DNA of 27,562 bases from IMG/VR virus record IMGVR_UViG_3300034418_010908, positions 1 to 27,562 of that record; one strand, 5' to 3'. The notes under the pieces are model-generated. The model was not told the DNA's origin, did not search any database, and saw only the letters and a list, made by a program, of their open reading frames with translations. Every line of letters starts with the position of its first letter. Within the stretch, counting starts at the first letter, position 1. The DNA is from a virus. The position numbers and the translations under genes were made by a program. Positions 1 to 25,563 of this stretch are shown here, one piece after another.

Positions 1-350
1 AATTGTTGGTTTTTACAAAATGTACTAAACTCTTCTTCAACATATTTTAAATCATTTGAAGATAATTTGTAAGCTTCTTTTAATTGATCAATAACCGCTG
101 TTTTTAAAACATCATTATCAAGTTTTTTAACTTCAATTTGAAGTGCTTCTAATGTAGGTGATGTATGATACTTATCAAAATATTTTAGAGTTTGACTAAC
201 AATCCATTGTAAAGATTGATTGTCAAAATATTCAGGACTAATAGTGTCCCTAATGTTTAGAATAAAGGACTTATTAGTTAAAAGAATATTTAGAACTTTT
301 AACTGAAACGGTAGCCCATACTGTGATAATTTATTGAAACTATTTACCAT
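1..350 (-). CDS. Replicative DNA helicase, DnaB/gp41-like (N-terminal part, cut by window edge)
   Basis: This open frame starts at an ATG at 350 and runs off the left edge without a stop, giving about 116 residues. The protein begins MVNSFNKLSQYGLPFQLKVL. It continues with FDKYHTSPTLEALQIE and ends with a YVEEEFSTFCKNQQ segment. The pattern (YG..FQ.KVL, a hydrophobic helix, PTLEAL, FCKNQ near residue 112) matches the helical N-terminal domain of T4 gp41-like DnaB helicases, which unwind DNA ahead of the polymerase and bind primase. The Walker ATPase core would lie outside the window, so the call rests on the N-domain pattern and on the neighbours: RNase H, RecA/UvsX, gp32 and polymerase lie just upstream. 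A promoter-like sequence with TTTG and TATATT elements precedes the start at 362-391. Confidence 0.75.
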   Translation of the reverse strand, partial: MVNSFNKLSQYGLPFQLKVLNILLTNKSFILNIRDTISPEYFDNQSLQWIVSQTLKYFDKYHTSPTLEALQIEVKKLDNDVLKTAVIDQLKEAYKLSSNDLKYVEEEFSTFCKNQQ

Positions 351-361
351 AACTTTTATTA

Positions 362-391
362 AATATAACTATCATTTTTTGGAAGTACAAA
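362..391 (-). promoter_or_regulatory. Promoter for the helicase gene, TTTG-N20-TATATT
   Basis: On the minus strand TTTG (391-388) is followed by 20 bases and then TATATTTA (367-360). Spacing and elements fit the Bacteroidota housekeeping promoter (TTTG at -33, TAnnTTTG at -7), with only the final G missing. The predicted start of transcription is near 355, just before the ATG at 350. The upstream element overlaps the end of the RNase H gene. Two sites of the same build occur before gp32 and before the polymerase. Confidence 0.5.
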
Positions 392-1397
392 GATAAGTAA
401 AAATACTTATTAACCAATTTTCTACATTTGGTATAGCATTTCCTAAAGTATCTTCTTGGTACATTTCCAAAAATTCTGCTTTGTTTAGACTAGACTTAGG
501 ATTATTTAACATTTCGTCAATTTCTTCCTTAGCATCGTCTGGGATGTTTGGATTGGATAAATCCATTAATTGTTCATTTATTTTTAATTGATGTTTAAAA
601 TTATAAACATTTCCATATAATGAACCTTTTGTTGTTTCTGATCCATTAAGACTTTTATTAATAATAAAATCTAAATCTACTTTACTTTCTTCTGTTAATT
701 CTGGGAAGAATTTAACTAGTTTTTTCATACCTAAACCTTTAACACCAGGTACATTATCAGATGAGTCACCTAATAGTACCTTCATGTTTAAAAAGTTTGT
801 AGCAGGAATACCAAATTCTTCTTTAACAGTTTTAGGAGTGTAAAACAATTTTTTAGTAGGAGAATAAACTGTTACTTTATCACTAACTAGTTGTAAAAAG
901 TCTTTATCTGATGACATAATAGTAACATCTCCATCGTATTTACCCGCTATATAACCGATTATATCATCAGCCTCTAAACGGTCGATAATTGTTACATCTA
1001 CAGGAAGACATTGTAAATAATACATTAGTCTTCTTATTTGGTTAACAATAGATTCACTCTCGTCATCTTGAGATTCAAATCCTTCCCAATTAGTAATTCT
1101 TGAAATATGTCTATTTCCTTTATAATCAGAATACAAATTTTTCTTGTTCACTGTTGATCCAGGACCATCAAAAATCAAAATTACTCTAGTTGGATTAATA
1201 TGCCTAATAGCAAATCCAATTGATTTTAGATACCCTGTTAATCCTCCAATATGATGCCCATGGGGGTTCATATGGTTAATAACAGCAAAACTTCTTAAAA
1301 ATGTATTCATAGAGTCAACTAGGAGGACTTTTGGTTTTAAGTCCTCCTTAGTTGCTGCTTTTATATTGTCTAGTATAGATTTAAAGTCTTTATTCAT
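372..1397 (-). CDS. rnh: 5'-3' exonuclease / RNase H (T4 Rnh, FEN-1 family)
   Basis: Flap-type 5'-3' nuclease expected to remove RNA primers and 5' flaps from lagging-strand fragments. The acidic metal-binding positions of the family are visible in order: LLVDSMN, LIFDGPGST, LEADDIIG, MSSDKDFLQL and GDSSDNVPGVKGLG, the last being the helix-hairpin-helix region that contacts duplex DNA. At 341 residues it is close to T4 RNase H (305). I start it at the ATG at 1397, which overlaps the UvsX stop (ATGAATAA). A longer reading from 1409 would use TTG. Neighbours are RecA/UvsX upstream and the gp41-like helicase downstream, a lagging-strand set. The C-terminal tail overlaps the promoter for the helicase. 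Confidence 0.92.
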   Translation of the reverse strand: MNKDFKSILDNIKAATKEDLKPKVLLVDSMNTFLRSFAVINHMNPHGHHIGGLTGYLKSIGFAIRHINPTRVILIFDGPGSTVNKKNLYSDYKGNRHISRITNWEGFESQDDESESIVNQIRRLMYYLQCLPVDVTIIDRLEADDIIGYIAGKYDGDVTIMSSDKDFLQLVSDKVTVYSPTKKLFYTPKTVKEEFGIPATNFLNMKVLLGDSSDNVPGVKGLGMKKLVKFFPELTEESKVDLDFIINKSLNGSETTKGSLYGNVYNFKHQLKINEQLMDLSNPNIPDDAKEEIDEMLNNPKSSLNKAEFLEMYQEDTLGNAIPNVENWLISIFTYLCTSKK

Positions 1398-2475
1398 CAG
1401 CTGTATCAAAAATATCTCTTACGTCTTCAGAAACTTCACTTTCTTCGATAATATCAAAGTCAGTACTTCCTAATACTTGAAGCCATTCATGAGCATGATC
1501 TTTTTTATACTCATTAACTGCTTTAGGATCTTCTTCAATGAATCCGTGAGGAGTCATAATAATTCTACCCATTGTAGTAACACCATTAACGTGATTCTTA
1601 TCTACAGATACTTTAGTACGTTTAGCAAATTCAACTTGTTTACCATCTTTAGTTGCTTTAATCTTAGATGTACCTGAATTTGTAATGTTACCAAATGTAA
1701 CTACTAAAGTTGAATCAAAGAACATAGTATTTCCACCTTTGTTCTTCATTTTAGGCATTTCCATTGGTGTAGCTGGTTTATCAACCCAAATTTTATTGAT
1801 ACAAACTAATGAATTGGTGTATGGTGATGATTCTTTTCTTGATAACAATATACGTTGATTAACATTATTACCAAATTGAGTACTCATAGCACCTGCATTC
1901 CACTCATTATTATTTTTGTTTGACTTAACAGACATTTCACATGGAACAGAACCAATTGAATCCCACAAGAAACATAAGTCATAAGGTAAATTACCTTTCT
2001 TTTGTTCATCAAGTAGGTCAAGAATAAATTCTGCTACATCTTCTACTGTATTTAATCGACCTCTATCTACATAAATAAAGAATCCATTATAATCAGTAAC
2101 TTCTCCTGTTTCTTTGTCAACAATTTCTTCAACTTGGAGACCCATCATCTTAGCATGCTCCCAAGACCATTTCATCTCAGTGATAATAAACACAGGCAAA
2201 ATACCTCGTTTCTGAGCATTAACAGCTACTTCAAGTAGAGCTGTTGTTTTGCCTGTATCCGAATGACCACGTAACAAAGTTATGTGACCATGCGGAATAC
2301 CAGGTAATGTTACAATGTCTTGAAAGGCTGAAGATAAAGGAATCCACTGCTGCTCTTTAAATTTAACACTACTAGCGCTTAAAAATTTTGATTTCTTAAA
2401 TGAATCGAGACTAAAGGTGCCTTTTACAGCACCTTTAACCGCTTCACTAGCTGAGGTTTCACTTTTCTTAGCCAT
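1390..2475 (-). CDS. uvsX: RecA/UvsX-like recombinase
   Basis: ATP-dependent strand-exchange protein for recombination-dependent replication and repair. The Walker A motif GHSDTGKT is at residues 70-77. The strand with a catalytic-type glutamate, VFIITE, ends at E100. Walker B, LCFLWDSIG, has D172. A conserved loop-2-like segment with NAGAMSTQFG follows, then VCINKIWVDKP. Length (361) is near T4 UvsX (391) and E. coli RecA (353). The first 40 residues are lysine- and serine-rich and look disordered. The C-terminus is acidic (EESEVSEDVRDIFDTADE), as in RecA proteins. It is encoded five bases after gp32 and overlaps RNase H, so the three are probably one transcript. Assignment to UvsX rather than bacterial RecA is by context. 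Confidence 0.92.
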   Translation of the reverse strand: MAKKSETSASEAVKGAVKGTFSLDSFKKSKFLSASSVKFKEQQWIPLSSAFQDIVTLPGIPHGHITLLRGHSDTGKTTALLEVAVNAQKRGILPVFIITEMKWSWEHAKMMGLQVEEIVDKETGEVTDYNGFFIYVDRGRLNTVEDVAEFILDLLDEQKKGNLPYDLCFLWDSIGSVPCEMSVKSNKNNNEWNAGAMSTQFGNNVNQRILLSRKESSPYTNSLVCINKIWVDKPATPMEMPKMKNKGGNTMFFDSTLVVTFGNITNSGTSKIKATKDGKQVEFAKRTKVSVDKNHVNGVTTMGRIIMTPHGFIEEDPKAVNEYKKDHAHEWLQVLGSTDFDIIEESEVSEDVRDIFDTADE

Positions 2476-2480
2476 AAAGA

Positions 2481-3293
2481 TTAGTCGTTAAAAAGTGAAT
2501 CAAATTCGTCTTCGTCAAAATTGCTCTTCTTTTTAGGAGCGGGTTCTGAATAGGTTGATTTTGGAGTTTCTTCAACAAATGGTGATTCACTTTCAGAATC
2601 TTCTGATGTTTCAGATTCTGCTTCTGGGTTAAGATAACTCATCAACATATCCTTCATTTCATCAAATTCATACTTTTTGTAAAGTGTAGTAACATCAGGC
2701 TGTTCAGATAACCATTCTTTTACTTGAGAATTATTATCACTTAAAGCAGTTTGTTTAGTACGAACACGTGCTGATGACTTATTGTACATAGTACCATTAG
2801 TTTCAGGTCCTGTAGTTTCAATCAAGATATCACGACCATCAACAACTGCTGTGTAGTCCCCGATATCCTCATCCTCAGCCATAGATAACAATTCCATGTA
2901 CATGGCTTTACCAAACTCCCACAAACGTACTCCTTTTTCTTCTTCACCACGAACAATTACAGGAGCAAAAATACGCATTTTTGGCTCAATTTTTTTAGCC
3001 AAACGCCAATTTTCTTTGTCAGAAGTTTTACGAAGTTGTGAAACAAACTCAACAATTGGATCTTTTTCACCCCAATTTGTTAGAGCAGCCATTGAACGAT
3101 TTCCAACTCCATAATGGAAGAAAACCTCTTTAAATGGGTTAGACTTGTCGAATTTTGAAGGTACAATTCGAATTACCTGTTTTCCTACAGTTGGTTTCCA
3201 GAAGTGTTTTGAACGATCTTCTTTGTTACCACCTGGTTTTTTGTTTTGCAATGTTTGCAAGCGATTTTTAATTGCATTTAAATCCATACTCAT
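2481..3293 (-). CDS. 32: Single-stranded DNA-binding protein, gp32-like, without zinc ligands
   Basis: Coats single-stranded DNA during replication and recombination. The N-terminal segment with FWKPTVGKQVIRIVPSK and KEVFFHYG matches the T4 gp32 OB-fold core (W, a VIRxxPSK strand, then a hydrophobic strand and HxG). RLWEFGKAMYMELLSM follows near residues 120-135. The C-terminus is the typical acidic, flexible tail ending FDEDEFDSLFND, which in T4 recruits partner proteins. T4 gp32 binds zinc through one His and three Cys; here the region after HYG (about residues 60-85) is short and the whole protein has no cysteine. The ATG at 3293 lacks a Shine-Dalgarno sequence, and a promoter-like site lies at 3315-3344. 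It is followed closely by RecA/UvsX. Confidence 0.88.
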   Translation of the reverse strand: MSMDLNAIKNRLQTLQNKKPGGNKEDRSKHFWKPTVGKQVIRIVPSKFDKSNPFKEVFFHYGVGNRSMAALTNWGEKDPIVEFVSQLRKTSDKENWRLAKKIEPKMRIFAPVIVRGEEEKGVRLWEFGKAMYMELLSMAEDEDIGDYTAVVDGRDILIETTGPETNGTMYNKSSARVRTKQTALSDNNSQVKEWLSEQPDVTTLYKKYEFDEMKDMLMSYLNPEAESETSEDSESESPFVEETPKSTYSEPAPKKKSNFDEDEFDSLFND

Positions 3294-3345: not shown

Positions 3346-3801
3346 TTAGAGTTCAATAATTTTAAAGATTTTTGTACCTACTTTTCTTAATGTGTCATTT
3401 TGAGTAAGTAAAATCATATTCCTATAATCAAACCAATCGATTTTATAATTAGGATCTGCTATTCCTTCATTTAATGATCTGATTAAGGTATTAAGAGCGT
3501 TTATAGTATATAAAGTATTTGTTTCTTTTTTTCTATGAACTAAAATTGTATTATAAGGAATTTGATTATCAAAAGTTGATCGATCAATATTATAAGTACA
3601 AATATATTCTTGAGTTTGTTTAGACTCTAAAACAAATATTTTATTATATAAAATTGTATATTGGGATGTTATATCGGCGATTGCCTCGTCTAAATATTCT
3701 CTTTGGACGAAGGTGCAAAACAGTTTATTACTCACAGTTTCTTGGTTTATTGGTCGCCCGATAAATATGTCATCAATCTGTGAAACCGTAATTTTGTCCA
3801 T
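3346..3801 (-). CDS. Unknown protein between DNA polymerase and gp32
   Basis: A 151-residue protein with no domain I can name. It looks folded: alternating hydrophobic strands (KLFCTFVQREYLDEAIADI, YNKIFVLES, EYICTYNI), then a basic strand with HRKKETNTLYTINALN, a helix, and a C-terminal WFDYRNMILLTQN segment. There is no signal peptide or membrane helix. The ATG at 3801 overlaps the end of the polymerase gene by 29 bases, so the two are probably translationally coupled. In T4 the gp32 neighbourhood holds the helicase loader (gp59), the late-transcription coactivator (gp33) and DsbA, but I see no convincing similarity to any of them. A replisome accessory or regulatory role is only guilt by association. 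Confidence 0.8.
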   Translation of the reverse strand: MDKITVSQIDDIFIGRPINQETVSNKLFCTFVQREYLDEAIADITSQYTILYNKIFVLESKQTQEYICTYNIDRSTFDNQIPYNTILVHRKKETNTLYTINALNTLIRSLNEGIADPNYKIDWFDYRNMILLTQNDTLRKVGTKIFKIIEL

Positions 3802-5074
3802 GTTGAAATTTAGTTTTAAAACCGTTTTTTTCTATAATTGATTTAATATCAACCAAACATTGCTTAGTATCATGTTTTGAAAAATCAAACAAAATTGAAT
3901 CATAAGTATACATTACAATCTTAGTTTGTTTATCTTTTAAATACTCAAATAATTCAGTTAATATTTTAACATTATTTTCTGTTTCTTTACTTTGAATTAA
4001 GTAATTAAATAGCTTTTGTGGTGATGGGTTATCTAACTTGTCTTTAGATAATTTTCTAAATCCACCTAAAAATATAAATCCTAATGTATTAAAGTCTTTC
4101 CATAATTGACTTACAAAATCATTAATTTCTTTAAAATAAGGCTTGTCTCTTAATTCTGGTCTAATACCTCCATATAAATTTTGGAATGTTATTTCTTTAG
4201 CCTCATTTTCATCTACTTCCATTACTTCAGCTAAATGTTGATATGGTTTATCTCCTAAATCATAATTGACTAATTTAGAAATAATACTTGGATGATAAGC
4301 TGAAAAATCAAATTCTACTAAAATATCATTTGATGGAATAAATGATTGTCTAGCTCCATTTTCTTTAGGTAAAGCTGCAAAATTAATATTATTAAAAGCA
4401 TTACTAGGTCTAGTTGTAATATTATATAAATTAAATTTAGTATGTATTTTATTTTTAGTTATTGAAAATTCATCATGAGTTGTTTCAAAATAATTTTTAA
4501 ATTTAGATGGTGATATTTTAATACCGTTTTCTTCTATGGTTTTAAATACACCTGTATACTCATAATCAAAATATTGATCAACTTGATTGTCTAAATAATC
4601 TTCAACTAAAGGATAAATAGATTCCCATTTCTCATAATGTTTTGAGATTGGGATTAAACTATTAACATTATTCCTAAAGTAATGTTGTCTGTAGAAATAG
4701 TTGTGAGCAACTGTGTTATATTCATTAGTTTTGATAGCATCTTTTCCATCATTTATTAATTTAAAATTTATATCAGTACATTGTACAGTTTCTGGAATAA
4801 AATAATCATGAAATTTCTTATCTATAACATGAATTATTTTATGTTGTTTTATAAAATCTAATACTTGAGACCAGTCTAGATTAAATGATTCAGTATGATT
4901 AATAGGTAAAATATAACCTTTAGTTTGAGAGCATCTATAATAAACACAATTTACACCTGTTAATTTAGGGTGAAAAGAATCATTGTTAGGTATAATATTG
5001 ATAAAACAACTATCATAGCAACTATTTAACTTTAAGTACTTAAGTTGATCAGATGTTTCTATTATATAATGCAT
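3773..5074 (-). CDS. Divergent family A DNA polymerase with degenerate exonuclease domain
   Basis: Template-directed DNA polymerase, judged from the palm and fingers motifs in family A order. TTRPSNAFNNINFAALP (residues 220-236) corresponds to the TGRLSS..PNLQNIP region. Motif A is VEFDFSAYHPSIISKL with D256. Motif B is KEITFQNLYGG (K293 to Y301). NYLIQSKETENN (357-368) replaces the usual N.PIQGTAAD helix. Motif C is YTYDSILFD with D392, where most relatives have HDE. The first 100 residues read like a Pol I proofreading domain, but the place of the first DxE motif reads FINII, so proofreading is probably lost. At 433 residues it is about half a normal phage PolA. A proofreading exonuclease could be encoded elsewhere. 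It opens the replication block behind a promoter-like site and overlaps the next gene. Confidence 0.75.
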   Translation of the reverse strand: MHYIIETSDQLKYLKLNSCYDSCFINIIPNNDSFHPKLTGVNCVYYRCSQTKGYILPINHTESFNLDWSQVLDFIKQHKIIHVIDKKFHDYFIPETVQCTDINFKLINDGKDAIKTNEYNTVAHNYFYRQHYFRNNVNSLIPISKHYEKWESIYPLVEDYLDNQVDQYFDYEYTGVFKTIEENGIKISPSKFKNYFETTHDEFSITKNKIHTKFNLYNITTRPSNAFNNINFAALPKENGARQSFIPSNDILVEFDFSAYHPSIISKLVNYDLGDKPYQHLAEVMEVDENEAKEITFQNLYGGIRPELRDKPYFKEINDFVSQLWKDFNTLGFIFLGGFRKLSKDKLDNPSPQKLFNYLIQSKETENNVKILTELFEYLKDKQTKIVMYTYDSILFDFSKHDTKQCLVDIKSIIEKNGFKTKFQHGQNYGFTD

Positions 5075-16712: not shown

Positions 16713-19700
16713 TTATTTATTAACCCATTCTAAACCACTTCCTGATGGTTGAACTGTATAAAGTCCTCCAGGAACAGTAAATAAAGGTATAGAAAATGTA
16801 AAACAGAAGTTTGTTCCTGGGAGGCAATATCTAATTGTTTGCGTTTTAGTAAAGCTTCCACTTTGATAAACTGTTAATCCTTCATATTTGTTTAAATTTA
16901 TTCTTTCAGAATAACTCATTACTGGATACATAAATCCACCTGGGGATGATGTTTTGGAGTGAACATGTAATGCTACAGAAGCACTTGGAGCAGCATTTAT
17001 ACCTATTTGATCTGTATAAGCTACAAACACGTTTGATCTATCAGCTTCACTAGCACCATCACCTATTAAGAAATGAGCACTTCCTAAAGTTTCATTATAA
17101 GCACCAACTACTGTTTGATATTGAGCTGATGCTGAGGTATGATTACCACCGGCGTGAGAATAAGCTCCTTGAGCTAAAGTATAATAACCTTCAGCATGTG
17201 ATGCAAATCCTATTGTTCTTGTTTCTCTACCTTCAGTATGTGAATAAGTACCACTAGCATAAGTGCGATATCCTTCAGCATGAGACCAAGGTCCTGCTAT
17301 TATATTTTCGCCACCTTCAGCGTGAGACCAACTAGCGTATAATAATATAGTATTAGCATTTCCTTCAACGTGAGATCCATATGCTAAAGTTGTATTAAAA
17401 CAACCTTCAGCATGAGCATGATAACCTAAAATGTATATATCATTCTGATCTCCTTCTACGTGAGCATCTATAGCATAAACAGTGTTATTAATACCTTCAG
17501 CATGAGAATAATCAGCTGATGACATAATGGTATTAATTCTTCCTTCAGCGTGAGCGTAGCTAGCACCTAAAATTTTATTTTGTGAACCTTTAGCGTTATT
17601 ATAACTTCCTGATATAGTGTTTTGATATCCTTCAATATGGTTATAAGCACCATAAGTTATTGTATTTTGGTAACCTTCTGCATGCCCATTACCTAATAAA
17701 GTATTACCTACACCTTCAGCATGGGAATAATCGGCAGATATTATATTTTGGAAACCTTCAGCATGAGAATAATAACCACCATTAGTAATACTATTACCAT
17801 ATCCTTCAGCGTGGGCATACATAGCATTACCTGTTACTGAATTACTATCACCATGAACAACTGAATAAGCTGCTGAGGCTGTTAATCTTGTACCATGTGT
17901 GAATGTTGGACCATCACTAAATGATCCTGTTATATTTCTTAAACCACTTTGGTCTGAAGGTAAACTAATATCTAAACTACATGAAGTATGATTATCTCTT
18001 GTTGTAACATCTTGCCAATTATCAACTTCTGTTACTGTAACTAATACACCATTAGATCCACTTATAGAAGCGCTAACAGCATTACCTACAAAATTCCAAT
18101 TATAAACTGGTGTATTAACTAAAGTTCCTTCATCGTAAACAGTATGTGGTGTAGCTTCATCTCCTTGAATACCTTGTATACCTTGTGCTCCAGTTATACC
18201 TTGTATACCTTGTGCTCCAGTTATACCTTGTATACCTTGAGGACCTTGAATACCTTGCGCACCTGTAGTTCCTTGAGTACCATCAGCACCTTGTATACCT
18301 TGTATTCCTTGGGCTCCAACAGTACCTTGGGCTCCAACAGTACCTTGAGCACCAGTAGCACCTTGAGGACCTTGAATACCTTGTATTCCTTGGGTTCCAA
18401 TAGTACCTTGTGGACCTTGAATACCTTGAATTCCTTGAGTACCTGCTCCTCCTCCTCCTGTTATTTCTATTATTACTCCATCACTACCACTTTGATTAAC
18501 TGATACTCCAGAACCTGTAAAATTAAATTTAGTAGTATTAGAGTTAACTAATGAACCTGTTTCATAAACAGTAACTGTAGATGATGCTGAAGAAGCATTT
18601 TGATAAAATAATTGACCATCTACAGCATTCCATCCTATAACATAAGTTTGGGTAGCTTGGGTCAGATCAGGCATATAAACACTTTGTGAGAAAGCGTTAA
18701 AGGTTTTATTAAATATAGCTAAATCACTTCTTGTACTTGAAGTACCATTACCTACAACAAATAAATCATCTGTTTGTGGACGATCTATATTATAATGACC
18801 AACTACATTAACATAATTTTCATTAGCTATTGTATGTAAACCAGCTGCATGTGAACCTATACCTGTTGTTACAGACCCGGATCCTTCAGCATGTGAATAA
18901 TTTCCAATAGTTGTTGTTCTATAACCTTCAGCGTGTGAAGCCTTAGAACCACTTATAATATTACTATAACCTTCAATGTGTGAACTATTTGAACCAGAAG
19001 TTATAATATTACCATATCCTTCAGTATGGTTGTTAATTGATTTATATAAAATAGTATTATAAGAACCTTCAATATGATTATGATCACCTCCTATTAATGT
19101 ATTTTTTAAACCTTCTACATGGTTATAATATTCAGGAGTTGTAGGTGATGATGTTCCGTCTAATATTGTATTAAATGCTCCTTCAATATGGTTAAAGTAA
19201 CTAGCTGTATAATTGTTTTTTATTGTATTTTTATAACCTTCTATATGAGAAGAAAACACTGCTCTGTCCCACCAAGTTCCTCCAAGTAATTTATTTTCTT
19301 GGCCTTCAACATGTGAATAAAATACATCTCCGTTTGTACTATTAAAATATCCTTCAACATGAGAATATCTAGTAGAACCATTTATATCATTATATCCTCC
19401 TTCAACATGAGTATATGCTGCATCACCGGAGAGAATATAATTACCAGCACCTTCAACATGAGACCAAGCGGATTTAATTAAGTTATAATAACCTTCTACA
19501 TGGGCCCAATATGCACTGTTACCATAGTTACTACTCGCTCCAGCATTATTGTATGTAAAGTTATTATTGCCTTCAGCGTGGGACCCATAAGCGGCGGGAA
19601 AATTGTAACAACCTTCAGCGTGAGCATGACTACCAATAATAGGATGATTTGGATAGTTTCTATCTCCTACATAGTTGTTATCACCTTCACCATGAGCATG

Positions 19701-20378
19701 TTGACTATAAACTCTTTGTAATAATCCTTCTGCGTGAGAATAATCACCTAATACTGTGTTTTTATATCCTTCAACATGAGAATAACTACCAGTAGAATAA
19801 CCAGTGCTTCCTCCCCATTTAGTAAATATTCCTCCAATAGTATTATATTGACCTTCAGCGTGAGAATAAGAACCTGTTAATATAGTATTATATTGACCTT
19901 CAACTCGTGATCCTGTACCTTTTAATATAGTATTATATTGACCTTCAGCAACACCAAAAGGTGCTAATGAAGTAATATAAACATGGTCACCGTTAGCTAA
20001 TGAATAATCTCCAGAAGCTGTAGCATAATAACCTCTAGCAAATGAAACTAAACCTGAAGCTGTAACATTATATTCTGGGTTGGTAGATGTACCTATGTTA
20101 ACACCTTGTCTTATAATATCTGAAAATTCAGCTGGGGTTGAAGCTATTAATGTATTTGATCCTGATACTTGTAAGGTTCCTAAAACAAAAACAGATCCAG
20201 TTATTGTTAATGATCCTGATGAGATTGTTTGATTATTTGAACCTGAAAGGAATACTGCACTATCAGCTAGATCTAATATACGTTGTCTAACATCCTCAGC
20301 AGTAATAGCTCTGTCTATATTATTTTCTATATATAGAGTAGCTTCATCTAATATTTGTTGTCTTGTTTTTTGGGTCAT
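16713..20378 (-). CDS. Long tail fibre / adhesin with beta-roll repeats and collagen-like rod
   Basis: A 1221-residue appendage protein. Residues 1-50 form a helical attachment segment (TRQQILDEATLYIENNIDRA and on). Residues 140-514 carry about 22 copies of an S-H-[AVI]-E-G-x-x-N repeat spaced roughly 14-24 residues apart, similar to YadA-type head repeats that fold as a trimeric left-handed beta-roll. Residues 645-740 are G-x-y triplets (GIQGIQGPQG and similar), a collagen-like rod. A second block of about 16 repeats spans 851-1080. A linker with a TVY[ED].G[ST]LVN pattern occurs on both sides of the rod, indicating internal duplication. The C-terminus contains PVMSYSERINLNKYEGLTVY, typical of phage fibre ends. 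There is no intramolecular chaperone. It likely contacts the host surface. The gene overlaps nothing and follows a 96-residue gene by nine bases. Confidence 0.88.
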   Translation of the reverse strand: MTQKTRQQILDEATLYIENNIDRAITAEDVRQRILDLADSAVFLSGSNNQTISSGSLTITGSVFVLGTLQVSGSNTLIASTPAEFSDIIRQGVNIGTSTNPEYNVTASGLVSFARGYYATASGDYSLANGDHVYITSLAPFGVAEGQYNTILKGTGSRVEGQYNTILTGSYSHAEGQYNTIGGIFTKWGGSTGYSTGSYSHVEGYKNTVLGDYSHAEGLLQRVYSQHAHGEGDNNYVGDRNYPNHPIIGSHAHAEGCYNFPAAYGSHAEGNNNFTYNNAGASSNYGNSAYWAHVEGYYNLIKSAWSHVEGAGNYILSGDAAYTHVEGGYNDINGSTRYSHVEGYFNSTNGDVFYSHVEGQENKLLGGTWWDRAVFSSHIEGYKNTIKNNYTASYFNHIEGAFNTILDGTSSPTTPEYYNHVEGLKNTLIGGDHNHIEGSYNTILYKSINNHTEGYGNIITSGSNSSHIEGYSNIISGSKASHAEGYRTTTIGNYSHAEGSGSVTTGIGSHAAGLHTIANENYVNVVGHYNIDRPQTDDLFVVGNGTSSTRSDLAIFNKTFNAFSQSVYMPDLTQATQTYVIGWNAVDGQLFYQNASSASSTVTVYETGSLVNSNTTKFNFTGSGVSVNQSGSDGVIIEITGGGGAGTQGIQGIQGPQGTIGTQGIQGIQGPQGATGAQGTVGAQGTVGAQGIQGIQGADGTQGTTGAQGIQGPQGIQGITGAQGIQGITGAQGIQGIQGDEATPHTVYDEGTLVNTPVYNWNFVGNAVSASISGSNGVLVTVTEVDNWQDVTTRDNHTSCSLDISLPSDQSGLRNITGSFSDGPTFTHGTRLTASAAYSVVHGDSNSVTGNAMYAHAEGYGNSITNGGYYSHAEGFQNIISADYSHAEGVGNTLLGNGHAEGYQNTITYGAYNHIEGYQNTISGSYNNAKGSQNKILGASYAHAEGRINTIMSSADYSHAEGINNTVYAIDAHVEGDQNDIYILGYHAHAEGCFNTTLAYGSHVEGNANTILLYASWSHAEGGENIIAGPWSHAEGYRTYASGTYSHTEGRETRTIGFASHAEGYYTLAQGAYSHAGGNHTSASAQYQTVVGAYNETLGSAHFLIGDGASEADRSNVFVAYTDQIGINAAPSASVALHVHSKTSSPGGFMYPVMSYSERINLNKYEGLTVYQSGSFTKTQTIRYCLPGTNFCFTFSIPLFTVPGGLYTVQPSGSGLEWVNK
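17137..17826 (-). repeat. Fibre beta-roll repeat block 2 (about 16 S-H-A-E-G units)
   Basis: Coding repeat near residues 851-1080 of the long fibre. The recurring codons read, on the plus strand, as ccttcagc-atg/gtg-agaa at about 45-60 base spacing. The last units (YRT..ASG, RET, YYT) are the most regular and resemble bacterial trimeric adhesin heads. Confidence 0.85.
18160..18450 (-). repeat. Collagen-like G-x-y repeat of the fibre
   Basis: About 32 G-x-y triplets dominated by GIQ, GPQ, GAQ and GTQ, coded by a 9- to 18-base near-repeat (plus strand accttgtat / accttgag). Predicted to form a trimeric collagen-like rod between the two beta-roll blocks. Confidence 0.9.
18836..19960 (-). repeat. 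Fibre beta-roll repeat block 1 (about 22 S-H-x-E-G units)
   Basis: Coding repeat near residues 140-514. Units alternate A, V, I or T before E-G, and the third position after G is usually Asn. Spacing is less regular than in block 2, with some units carrying long insertions (for example around GGSTGYSTGSYSH). Confidence 0.85.
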
Positions 20379-23354: not shown

Positions 23355-24581
23355 TTATATAAAAATATATTTGTCTGCTCGTTTAGTTCCATCAAAAGGA
23401 TTAATCATTGTTTTTACTATTTCTGGATCTACTAGATCTGGATGTACCCACCAATCTTCAAATGTACTATTTGAATCAGGAGCGATATCACCTACTACTC
23501 GTTTATATCCTAAAGATTCTAAATATTTTCTTGAAGAATGTCTATAATCAATTGGATGATTTATATAATAATCATGTTCATAAGTGATCACTCTAAACTT
23601 GTATTTGTCAAAAGGAATTGATAATAAAACACTAAAAGTAACATCAGCTGGTTCACAGTCGATTTGTAAATAATCTATAACTGTATCAAAATTATTTTCA
23701 GCTAATAACTTATCATAATCAACTGTTGTAGCATCTTGTAAAATACATGTGTTAGAACGATGTTCTTTATGTTTATTTACTTCTTTTTCATCAATTTCTA
23801 ATGCTACCCCGGTCCAATTAAATTCTTTTTCTAATAAAGCTGTATTACTATTATGGAAAGGATCTGATGCTCCGATTTCAAGATATGTACCATTTTCTTT
23901 TCCATCCAACATACTTAATATAAATAAATCTTGATATGTTTGAGAGTAATTTTTCTCAATTTTTTCAGAATTTTTAAACTTATATCTTAATTTTGAATGT
24001 TCTTCTTTAGTATATGTTAATGTTGGATATTGAAGACCATGTATCATAGATAGATTATTATAACAAGCTTCTATAAATTCTCTACGCATTGGATATTCTT
24101 TTAACAAATGGTTAAATAATTCTCTTGATTCATCACAATATCCAATCCACCAACCTGCTACTGCTTTTTGGAATATTAAAGCATATTCACCTGGGAAATC
24201 TATATCAACTGATGTGGATTTTAGATTTTTTAGTTTATCTAAACCTTGAACAGCGGCTAAATATGATTCTTGCCATTCATTTTTTGTTTGATGGTCATAA
24301 CTTAAATGATAATAAGCTTCAGGACGTTCACGATCAAAAGTAATAGCATTTAAAATAGATCCTCTAACTGAATGAGGACGATGTCCTAATGTTTTTAAAC
24401 ATAAAGCTACTTTAACTAAAGCTTCATATGTTAAATCTTTATCAAAACCATACTCTGCTGCTCTTAAAAATAATGTTAAAGCGGCTGCTTTGTGACCTTC
24501 TTGATAATATTGTTCACCAAACCAAAAATTAGTTTCTGGGTTATATGGGTCATTTAAAAAATTTTTTAATATTTTATCCAT
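23355..24581 (-). CDS. TPR-like domain plus FkbM-family methyltransferase
   Basis: A 408-residue two-domain protein. The first 180 residues are helical pairs of TPR type (for example FWFGEQYYQEGHKAAALTLF and EAYYHLSYDHQTKNEWQESY), as found next to phage and bacterial glycan enzymes. The second domain starts near 212 with YSQTYQDLFILSMLDG. The SAM-binding motif YLEIGASDPFHNSNT is at 233-247. VALEIDE is at 259-265, and LQIDCEPADV at 305-314. It ends with HSSRKYLESLGYKRVVGDIA. This is the FkbM family, which methylates hydroxyl groups on sugars and polyketides. The ATG overlaps the stop of the GH130-like gene (ATGGATAA). A role in methylating a glycan on the virion or host surface is inferred. 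Confidence 0.82.
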   Translation of the reverse strand: MDKILKNFLNDPYNPETNFWFGEQYYQEGHKAAALTLFLRAAEYGFDKDLTYEALVKVALCLKTLGHRPHSVRGSILNAITFDRERPEAYYHLSYDHQTKNEWQESYLAAVQGLDKLKNLKSTSVDIDFPGEYALIFQKAVAGWWIGYCDESRELFNHLLKEYPMRREFIEACYNNLSMIHGLQYPTLTYTKEEHSKLRYKFKNSEKIEKNYSQTYQDLFILSMLDGKENGTYLEIGASDPFHNSNTALLEKEFNWTGVALEIDEKEVNKHKEHRSNTCILQDATTVDYDKLLAENNFDTVIDYLQIDCEPADVTFSVLLSIPFDKYKFRVITYEHDYYINHPIDYRHSSRKYLESLGYKRVVGDIAPDSNSTFEDWWVHPDLVDPEIVKTMINPFDGTKRADKYIFI

Positions 24582-25563
24582 TGAGTAATTCTTCTAAAAC
24601 ATTTTCTGGGATTCTAACTGCAAAAGCCGCATTATCATGGAATCCATAAGTTAAAACTAAATCATTATCTATAACAGCAGCACCACAAACAAATTCAATT
24701 CGTCCTGTCATAAATTTAAATACATCAGAATATTTAACAATATTCCAATTTTCATCATAAGCGATTATTCGGTGATTGTAAATACCATCTTTATTATTGT
24801 TTTCATTTTGCCAAAAATCTACTTCATGAACAACACATAAACGATAATTTTTCCATTTAACAACTGAAGAACCACCTCTTAAATCATGACCAGCATTTAT
24901 TTGTTTAAAAACACCATTAAATATAGTTTCACTAGTTCCATTAATAGGATCAACTTTAACAATTTCTGCTGGATTAGCCCATTTTACATAACAATAATCC
25001 ATATCATTAATAGGCATCCAATTCTTTTCACAATATGAATTAGGATCATTTGGTGGTTCAATTCTTACTCGAGAAATTTCATTAGCTGTATCATAGTCAT
25101 CTATTTCAGAAAGTTCCATTCTGCCTTCACCATTAGGTTTTGTATCTCTTCTAACACCGGTAATGTATAAAACACCATCCCAACGAACCACTCGAGCATC
25201 TTCTAGACCAATAAATTCCCAAACTGGGGTAATATCTAGTTCAGATGTGTTTACTTCTTTATAAGAAGCTACTTCTAAAGTTTTAGGATCTAAAACACAT
25301 AAAAAATTAGCAGTTCTAAGATTACAATCATCTTCAGGATGAATATAAGTTAAAGGACCCCAACGACTTTGGAATTTTTGATTATTTTCACAAAGATAAA
25401 GAGCGTATCCTACGTTCCTTATATTACATAATATAGTGCCATCATCATCAATAAAAATAGAAGGATTACATATACCTGTACCTTTACTATCAGACGAAGG
25501 AATCTTTAAGTGGGCTACAGAACCCCCTTTGTCTAAAACTAATTTAACTAAATTATCAATCAT
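24574..25563 (-). CDS. GH130-type beta-propeller glycosidase / mannoside phosphorylase homologue
   Basis: A 329-residue five-bladed propeller protein. Visible family signatures: NPSIFIDDDGTI (33-44), the catalytic-type GLEDARV (119-125, D122 at the place of the general acid in EDPR motifs), YCEKNWMP (177-184), DLRGGSSVV (227-235), EFVCGAAVI (290-298) and LTYGFHDNAAFAVRI (304-318). Characterised GH130 enzymes cleave beta-mannosides with phosphate, or hydrolyse them. Phage and giant-virus homologues sit beside sugar-modifying genes and have not been assigned reactions. It overlaps the TPR-FkbM gene by eight bases, so both are co-produced. Possible roles are remodelling a surface glycan or making a sugar phosphate for virion decoration. 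There is no signal peptide, so it acts in the cytoplasm or on the virion. Confidence 0.8.
   Translation of the reverse strand: MIDNLVKLVLDKGGSVAHLKIPSSDSKGTGICNPSIFIDDDGTILCNIRNVGYALYLCENNQKFQSRWGPLTYIHPEDDCNLRTANFLCVLDPKTLEVASYKEVNTSELDITPVWEFIGLEDARVVRWDGVLYITGVRRDTKPNGEGRMELSEIDDYDTANEISRVRIEPPNDPNSYCEKNWMPINDMDYCYVKWANPAEIVKVDPINGTSETIFNGVFKQINAGHDLRGGSSVVKWKNYRLCVVHEVDFWQNENNNKDGIYNHRIIAYDENWNIVKYSDVFKFMTGRIEFVCGAAVIDNDLVLTYGFHDNAAFAVRIPENVLEELLNG

Follow-up and report, generated by a model that had tools for sequence, protein, structure and literature searches.

A 433-amino-acid protein encoded in a 27,562-base virus fragment (IMG/VR record IMGVR_UViG_3300034418_010908; this whole stretch is called the window below) is a compact, divergent member of the family A DNA polymerases, and in its relatives the corresponding gene is found together with a replicative polymerase. 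We favor, with roughly even confidence, the explanation that the protein is an active but distributive accessory second polymerase that serves in gap filling or repair together with a 5' nuclease, the single-stranded DNA-binding protein gp32, and a small protein that we call p151. The same explanation would place the gene in a contractile-tailed, T4-related aquatic phage. What is new here is a variant family A polymerase that appears to be accessory rather than a replacement, and that is accompanied by p151 as a constant partner.

The gene (positions 3773..5074, minus strand) begins with an ATG codon, and its stop codon is counted within these coordinates. A preliminary description of the window had assigned family A motifs to named residues of this 433-aa reading frame, and both the frame and the motifs were confirmed on the minus strand. 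A second contig (L008) encodes an identical protein and a third (L009) a near-identical one (99.5%), which argues against an assembly error. Comparison with four relatives gave dN/dS values of 0.15-0.31, indicating that the gene is under purifying selection.

A Pol I-type fold along the whole protein

When the window protein was searched alone, it matched no Pfam or PHROG model, and phmmer returned only pentatricopeptide matches that we judged to be due to chance. In contrast, a profile built from 20 relatives and searched against the PDB sequence set matched the Klenow fragment of E. coli (E=2.1e-8) and, at about 1e-4, Bst Pol I. Six of 20 relatives match Pfam DNA_pol_A (PF00476; best 4.6e-11), and 11 of 20 match PHROG 17, which is annotated as "DNA polymerase".

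Structure prediction and comparison with Pol I had been proposed as checks on the initial assignment. An AlphaFold2 model, for which 53 aligned sequences served as input, has a pLDDT of 94 and a pTM of 0.91. Foldseek places the apicoplast polymerase (E=1.3e-17), Klenow (TMq of 0.74, the highest value obtained), Bst, Taq, Pol theta, and Pol nu in the top ranks for this model, and phage PolA proteins are its matches in a viral structure library. This ranking points to a family A polymerase fold that includes the N-terminal exonuclease-like domain. Thus, a Pol I-type right-hand fold along the whole length of the protein is well supported by the predicted model, and profile, motifs, and fold alike uphold the original view that the protein is a family A polymerase, compact and divergent, whose exonuclease domain is vestigial.

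A profile-profile comparison with the full-length PolA of Flavobacterium phage immuto, a cultured relative discussed below, fell below significance (E 0.16 to 0.46), with the catalytic residues in register in those local alignments. The claim of homology therefore rests on the HMMER and fold results. We also considered a family B reading of motif A, because DFSAYHPSII resembles the family B motif DxxSLYPSII. This reading was rejected because relatives carry D-Y-D-A-F-H-x-R-L at the same place and the profile finds Pol I.

Active-site residues

Conservation was counted in an alignment of 55 compact polymerase sequences. The equivalents of Pol I R668 (R222, within TTRPSN; 4409..4411), D705 (D256, the catalytic aspartate of motif A, within DFSAYHPSII; 4307..4309), K758 and F762 (K293 and F297, in the motif B O helix), Q849 (Q361; 3992..3994), and D882 (the aspartate of motif C) are invariant (55/55), and that of Y766 (Y301) is present in 54 of the 55. 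Motif B from K293 to Y301 occupies 4172..4198 and lies within AKEITFQNLYGG. All of these features are encoded on the minus strand, and D256, K293, Y301, and the tripeptide that takes the place of HDE in motif C had been correctly located in the preliminary description.

Other positions depart from Pol I. The steric-gate position, which is Glu710 in Pol I, is occupied by H261 (4292..4294) in the window protein and by histidine in all 55 sequences. The HDE of motif C is Y391-D392-S393 (3896..3904), with Y and D invariant across the family (YDS in 50 sequences and YDA in 5). The residue aligned with Arg754 varies and is mostly Tyr. The replicative PolA of immuto (gp199) retains Glu511 at the gate, and the histidine is therefore a property of the compact family and not of these phages in general. 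In Pol I, loss of Arg754 and Glu710 would reduce activity, and given the loss of both residues it is possible that the compact polymerase has low or altered activity.

A gate histidine in every sequence, YD(S/A) in place of HDE, and the absence of a thumb (see below) are also features that might suit a primase-polymerase or RNA-making enzyme, one that uses ribonucleotides to lay or extend primers. T7 RNA polymerase likewise lacks a Glu at the steric-gate position and has HDS as its motif C. In addition, the PDB holds a structure of Bst polymerase E658A with rCTP, and we take E658 to be the same residue as the gate position. We nevertheless regard such an enzyme as unlikely. The best polymerase matches listed, by sequence and by fold, are all DNA polymerases and none are RNA polymerases, and a DnaG-type primase is already encoded in 8 of 12 records that carry the compact gene, including every record of at least 111 kb (the four without it are fragments of up to 101 kb). 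Moreover, the PolA of Thermus phage Tt72, a family A enzyme, has Ser in the position of E883 and is an active DNA polymerase (PMC9324360), so motif C alone says little. Tt72 PolA differs from the compact polymerase in that it retains the steric-gate Glu and has strong proofreading.

The invariance of the catalytic residues bears on another alternative, in which the protein is a catalytically dead scaffold, that is, a polymerase-shaped subunit of the replisome or of the recombination machinery. Such a protein could well have lost Glu710, Arg754, the acidic residue of HDE, and the thumb, and could have become too divergent for any Pfam or PHROG model to match it, as is the case for the window protein. 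However, it would have no need of two catalytic aspartates and of Lys758, Phe762, and Gln849 equivalents that never vary, or of a Tyr766 equivalent in 54 of 55 sequences. We consequently think it improbable that the protein is a dead scaffold.

Loss of the thumb and of proofreading

Only a remnant of the thumb is present, at residues 184-222 (4409..4525, minus strand), as judged from the predicted model and from alignment with Klenow and immuto PolA. The distance from a conserved IExxG to the R668 equivalent is 38 residues in the compact polymerase versus 214 in immuto gp199, an alignment with Klenow sets 93 Klenow thumb residues against 8 profile residues, and the predicted model has no long helices in the thumb region. 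These observations indicate that the thumb is essentially gone, with about 85 residues of the Klenow/Pol I thumb absent. The fingers are shortened as well. The thumb of Pol I has an established role in holding DNA, and an enzyme that lacks this subdomain would be expected to grip DNA poorly, to be distributive, and so to need help.

Residues 1-141 (4652..5074, minus strand) form a vestigial 3'-5' exonuclease-like domain, as seen in the alignment and the model. The earlier report that acidic residues are missing from exonuclease motif I holds for nearly the entire family. The positions that correspond to D355 and E357 are P29 and N31 in the window protein, and across the 55 sequences they are occupied by P, S, T, or L and by N or S, respectively, with a single D. 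In the same domain, all 55 sequences share H35, H60, and K87, and 53 of them share D101. Our alignment places these residues outside motif I, and they possibly mark a binding site or an interface.

When compared with E. coli Klenow, the compact polymerase is alike in its whole-length fold, in the order of motifs A, B, and C, and in its catalytic Asp, Lys, Phe, Tyr, and Gln residues. It is unlike Klenow in lacking the exonuclease acids, a thumb portion of ~85 aa, and R754, in its trimmed fingers, and in the changes from E710 to H and from HDE to YDS/A.

A constant partner among replication genes

The preliminary description had placed the polymerase gene beside gp32. The two genes are indeed near each other, but they do not adjoin directly because the p151 reading frame (3346..3801), which encodes 151 aa, lies between them and has 29 bases in common with the end of the polymerase gene. 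Beyond it on the same minus strand are genes for a gp32-like single-stranded DNA-binding protein (2481..3293), a UvsX/RecA-like recombinase (1390..2475), and a 5'-3' exonuclease of the Pol I 5' nuclease or T4 RNase H type (372..1409), all three recognized by Pfam and PHROG searches. These are followed by the start of a DnaB/gp41-type helicase gene (3..350), which is cut by the end of the window and is assigned by synteny with immuto gp007. Elsewhere in the window, also on the minus strand, 16713-20378 encodes a 1221-aa fiber-like protein in which SHAEG/HVEG-type repeats are numerous and a GxQGxxG stretch resembles collagen. Two genes of nonstructural appearance lie in the tail region (23355-25563, minus strand); judged by eye, the candidates are a protein with TPR and a possible methyltransferase, and a possible glycoside-active protein.

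The arrangement is nearly constant. p151 is present in 129 of the 130 loci that have more than 1.5 kb of downstream sequence, where its gene usually abuts or overlaps that of the polymerase, and among 50,697 phage records p151 and the compact polymerase occur in exactly the same six. Among the 57 loci that extend far enough, 56 have the order compact polymerase, p151, gp32, uvsX, and 5' exonuclease, and the sole difference in the 57th is a recombinase that does not match the uvsX profile. The predicted model of p151 has a pLDDT of 86, with no PDB or PHROG match and no convincing Foldseek match to solved structures. Because a recognizable fold is absent, what can be proposed for p151 is drawn from its adjacency and co-occurrence. 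The conservation of this protein exceeds that of the polymerase (59% vs 35% identity to immuto), and its invariant residues include HRKK..N.LY.IN.LN.

Cellular Pol I consists of a 5' nuclease and a Klenow-like core, and fills gaps once primers have been removed. The compact polymerase is a family A core in which proofreading has been lost along with most of the thumb and a portion of the fingers, but which retains the two catalytic aspartates, the lysine of motif B, and the contacts to primer and template. Together with the neighboring 5' nuclease, such a core would amount to a Pol I split in two. It could then fill short gaps, or carry out repair or recombination synthesis, in company with the gp32, UvsX, and 5' nuclease proteins whose genes adjoin it. 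p151 might supply the missing grip on DNA, or might dock the polymerase to the replisome. A possible model for p151 is provided by T7 gp5, a phage polymerase of family A that is made processive by a small host partner, thioredoxin. In contrast, the thumb of T7 gp5 is full, and p151 is encoded by the phage and matches no solved structure.

The same neighborhood could instead be read as that of a DNA polymerase specialized for damage bypass or for recombination, where it would extend the 3' ends of D-loops made by UvsX rather than fill Okazaki gaps. The absence of proofreading and the proximity of uvsX and gp32 in 56 of 57 loci fit this proposal. The 5' nuclease gene adjoins just as constantly, however, and nothing singles out bypass, so that we assign this specialization a small probability.

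A second polymerase in addition to the replicase

The preliminary description had suggested that the compact polymerase stands in the place of gp43. The 27.5-kb window does contain no other polymerase gene, with genes elsewhere in the genome of that phage lying beyond the fragment. In relatives, this suggestion is contradicted by the presence of PolB with its exonuclease, or of a full-length PolA. When 12 records that carry the compact gene were searched, 8 proved to encode a family B polymerase as well, and both genes are present on two other virus contigs, for a total of 10 virus records. The family B exonuclease domain is present in all eight family B polymerases examined. The records without a family B match are immuto, fragments of up to 111 kb, and one MAG with an immuto-type PolA. 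Immuto itself has no family B polymerase and encodes a 777-aa PolA (gp199) with a PF01612 exonuclease domain and PF00476. In a reverse search, the compact gene was found in 12 of 13 long contigs that encode an immuto-type full-length PolA, the one exception being a 121-kb piece.

Coexistence with PolB or full-length PolA means that the compact gene encodes a second polymerase, one that supplements a normal replisome. This coexistence is well supported in relatives. For the phage represented by the window, we infer a separate replicative polymerase from relatives with 54% identity that reside on contigs of 176-180 kb. A normal gp43 in the same genome combined with a poor match to the polymerase fold had been named as grounds for doubting the original assignment; a gp43 was found, in relatives only, and the match to the fold is not poor. 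To our knowledge, T4 manages without a second polymerase, and we count this against the accessory polymerase explanation.

That the compact enzyme serves as the replicative polymerase in place of gp43, with the exonuclease encoded separately as in Rhodothermus phage RM378, is in keeping with the lack of another polymerase gene in the 27.5-kb fragment but is very improbable, since relatives also encode PolB or full PolA and the split polymerase of RM378 belongs to family B. RM378 shares with the compact polymerase the separation of polymerase and exonuclease functions, but its p092 matches PF00136 (family B), its separate exonuclease p024 matches PF03104 (family B exonuclease), and a PF00476 match is absent from RM378. 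An RM378-type split was therefore ruled out on the grounds of polymerase family.

Several observations concern the replicative enzymes themselves. In LR756508, at about 260400-266900, the family B polymerase lies in two frames with Hint-domain matches, which suggests an intein or a split gene. In three other contigs (L099, L100, and L101), the exonuclease-bearing family B frame ends at 576-639 aa, about halfway through PF00136, which suggests three lineages with a split gp43. In immuto (NC_055915, 104446-106150), the DnaG primase gene is followed by a PHROG 298 / PD-(D/E)XK-type exonuclease, which is not of the proofreading type.

Distribution and significance

A tblastn search of 50,697 phage records matched only three lineages in six records. 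Four of these records are of Flavobacterium phage immuto, whose gp001 (YP_010114413) is a direct homolog of the window protein with 35% identity over 99% of the query. Its annotation as "DNA polymerase family A" is by name only; the gene order at its locus is nearly identical to that of the window, and the full-length PolA gp199 is encoded in the same genome. The remaining lineages are Microcystis phage Mel-JY01, in which the homolog is annotated as a hypothetical protein, and a 484-kb uncultured phage (LR756508). In IMG/VR, a first set comprised 80 loci, and an alignment-based search found at least 571 stretches that encode relatives. Ten contigs from bacterial and archaeal MAGs, several of them Bacteroidota, also encode the compact polymerase and are probably phage contigs.

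Phage replication is usually described in terms of one polymerase per genome. Our literature search found no paper describing the compact polymerase family, although related entries may be present in published surveys. Moraphages have both VOG00275 (PolB) and VOG01986, "DNA polymerase I", in their shared gene list (PMC12619734), and the latter may be the compact polymerase gene or else a 5' nuclease. Surveys of virioplankton PolA sort these enzymes by residue 762 (PMC6302109), and they may or may not include the compact family. A second polymerase accompanying a family B enzyme also occurs in group 2.2 jumbo phages, where a minimal split Pol III alpha is found beside a T4-type family B polymerase and has been proposed to share in strand synthesis or repair (PMC7824862). 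The jumbo phage enzyme differs in belonging to another polymerase family and in being encoded by two genes.

A bolder proposal, to which we give little weight, is that these proteins constitute a widespread class of thumbless family A enzymes with a gate histidine that function solely as one half of a two-protein enzyme with p151, accept ribonucleotides (or both sugars), and start or heal strands beside the replicase and DnaG.

Hundreds of aquatic phage contigs carry this modified family A polymerase and its small companion protein at a fixed place among their replication genes. The second polymerase and p151 are retained whichever replicase is used, family B or family A. The family also provides a natural test of how far Pol I can be reduced (in the thumb, the steric gate, and HDE) while the core remains under selection, and the use of a second polymerase to a T4-like phage becomes testable in the cultured Flavobacterium phage immuto.
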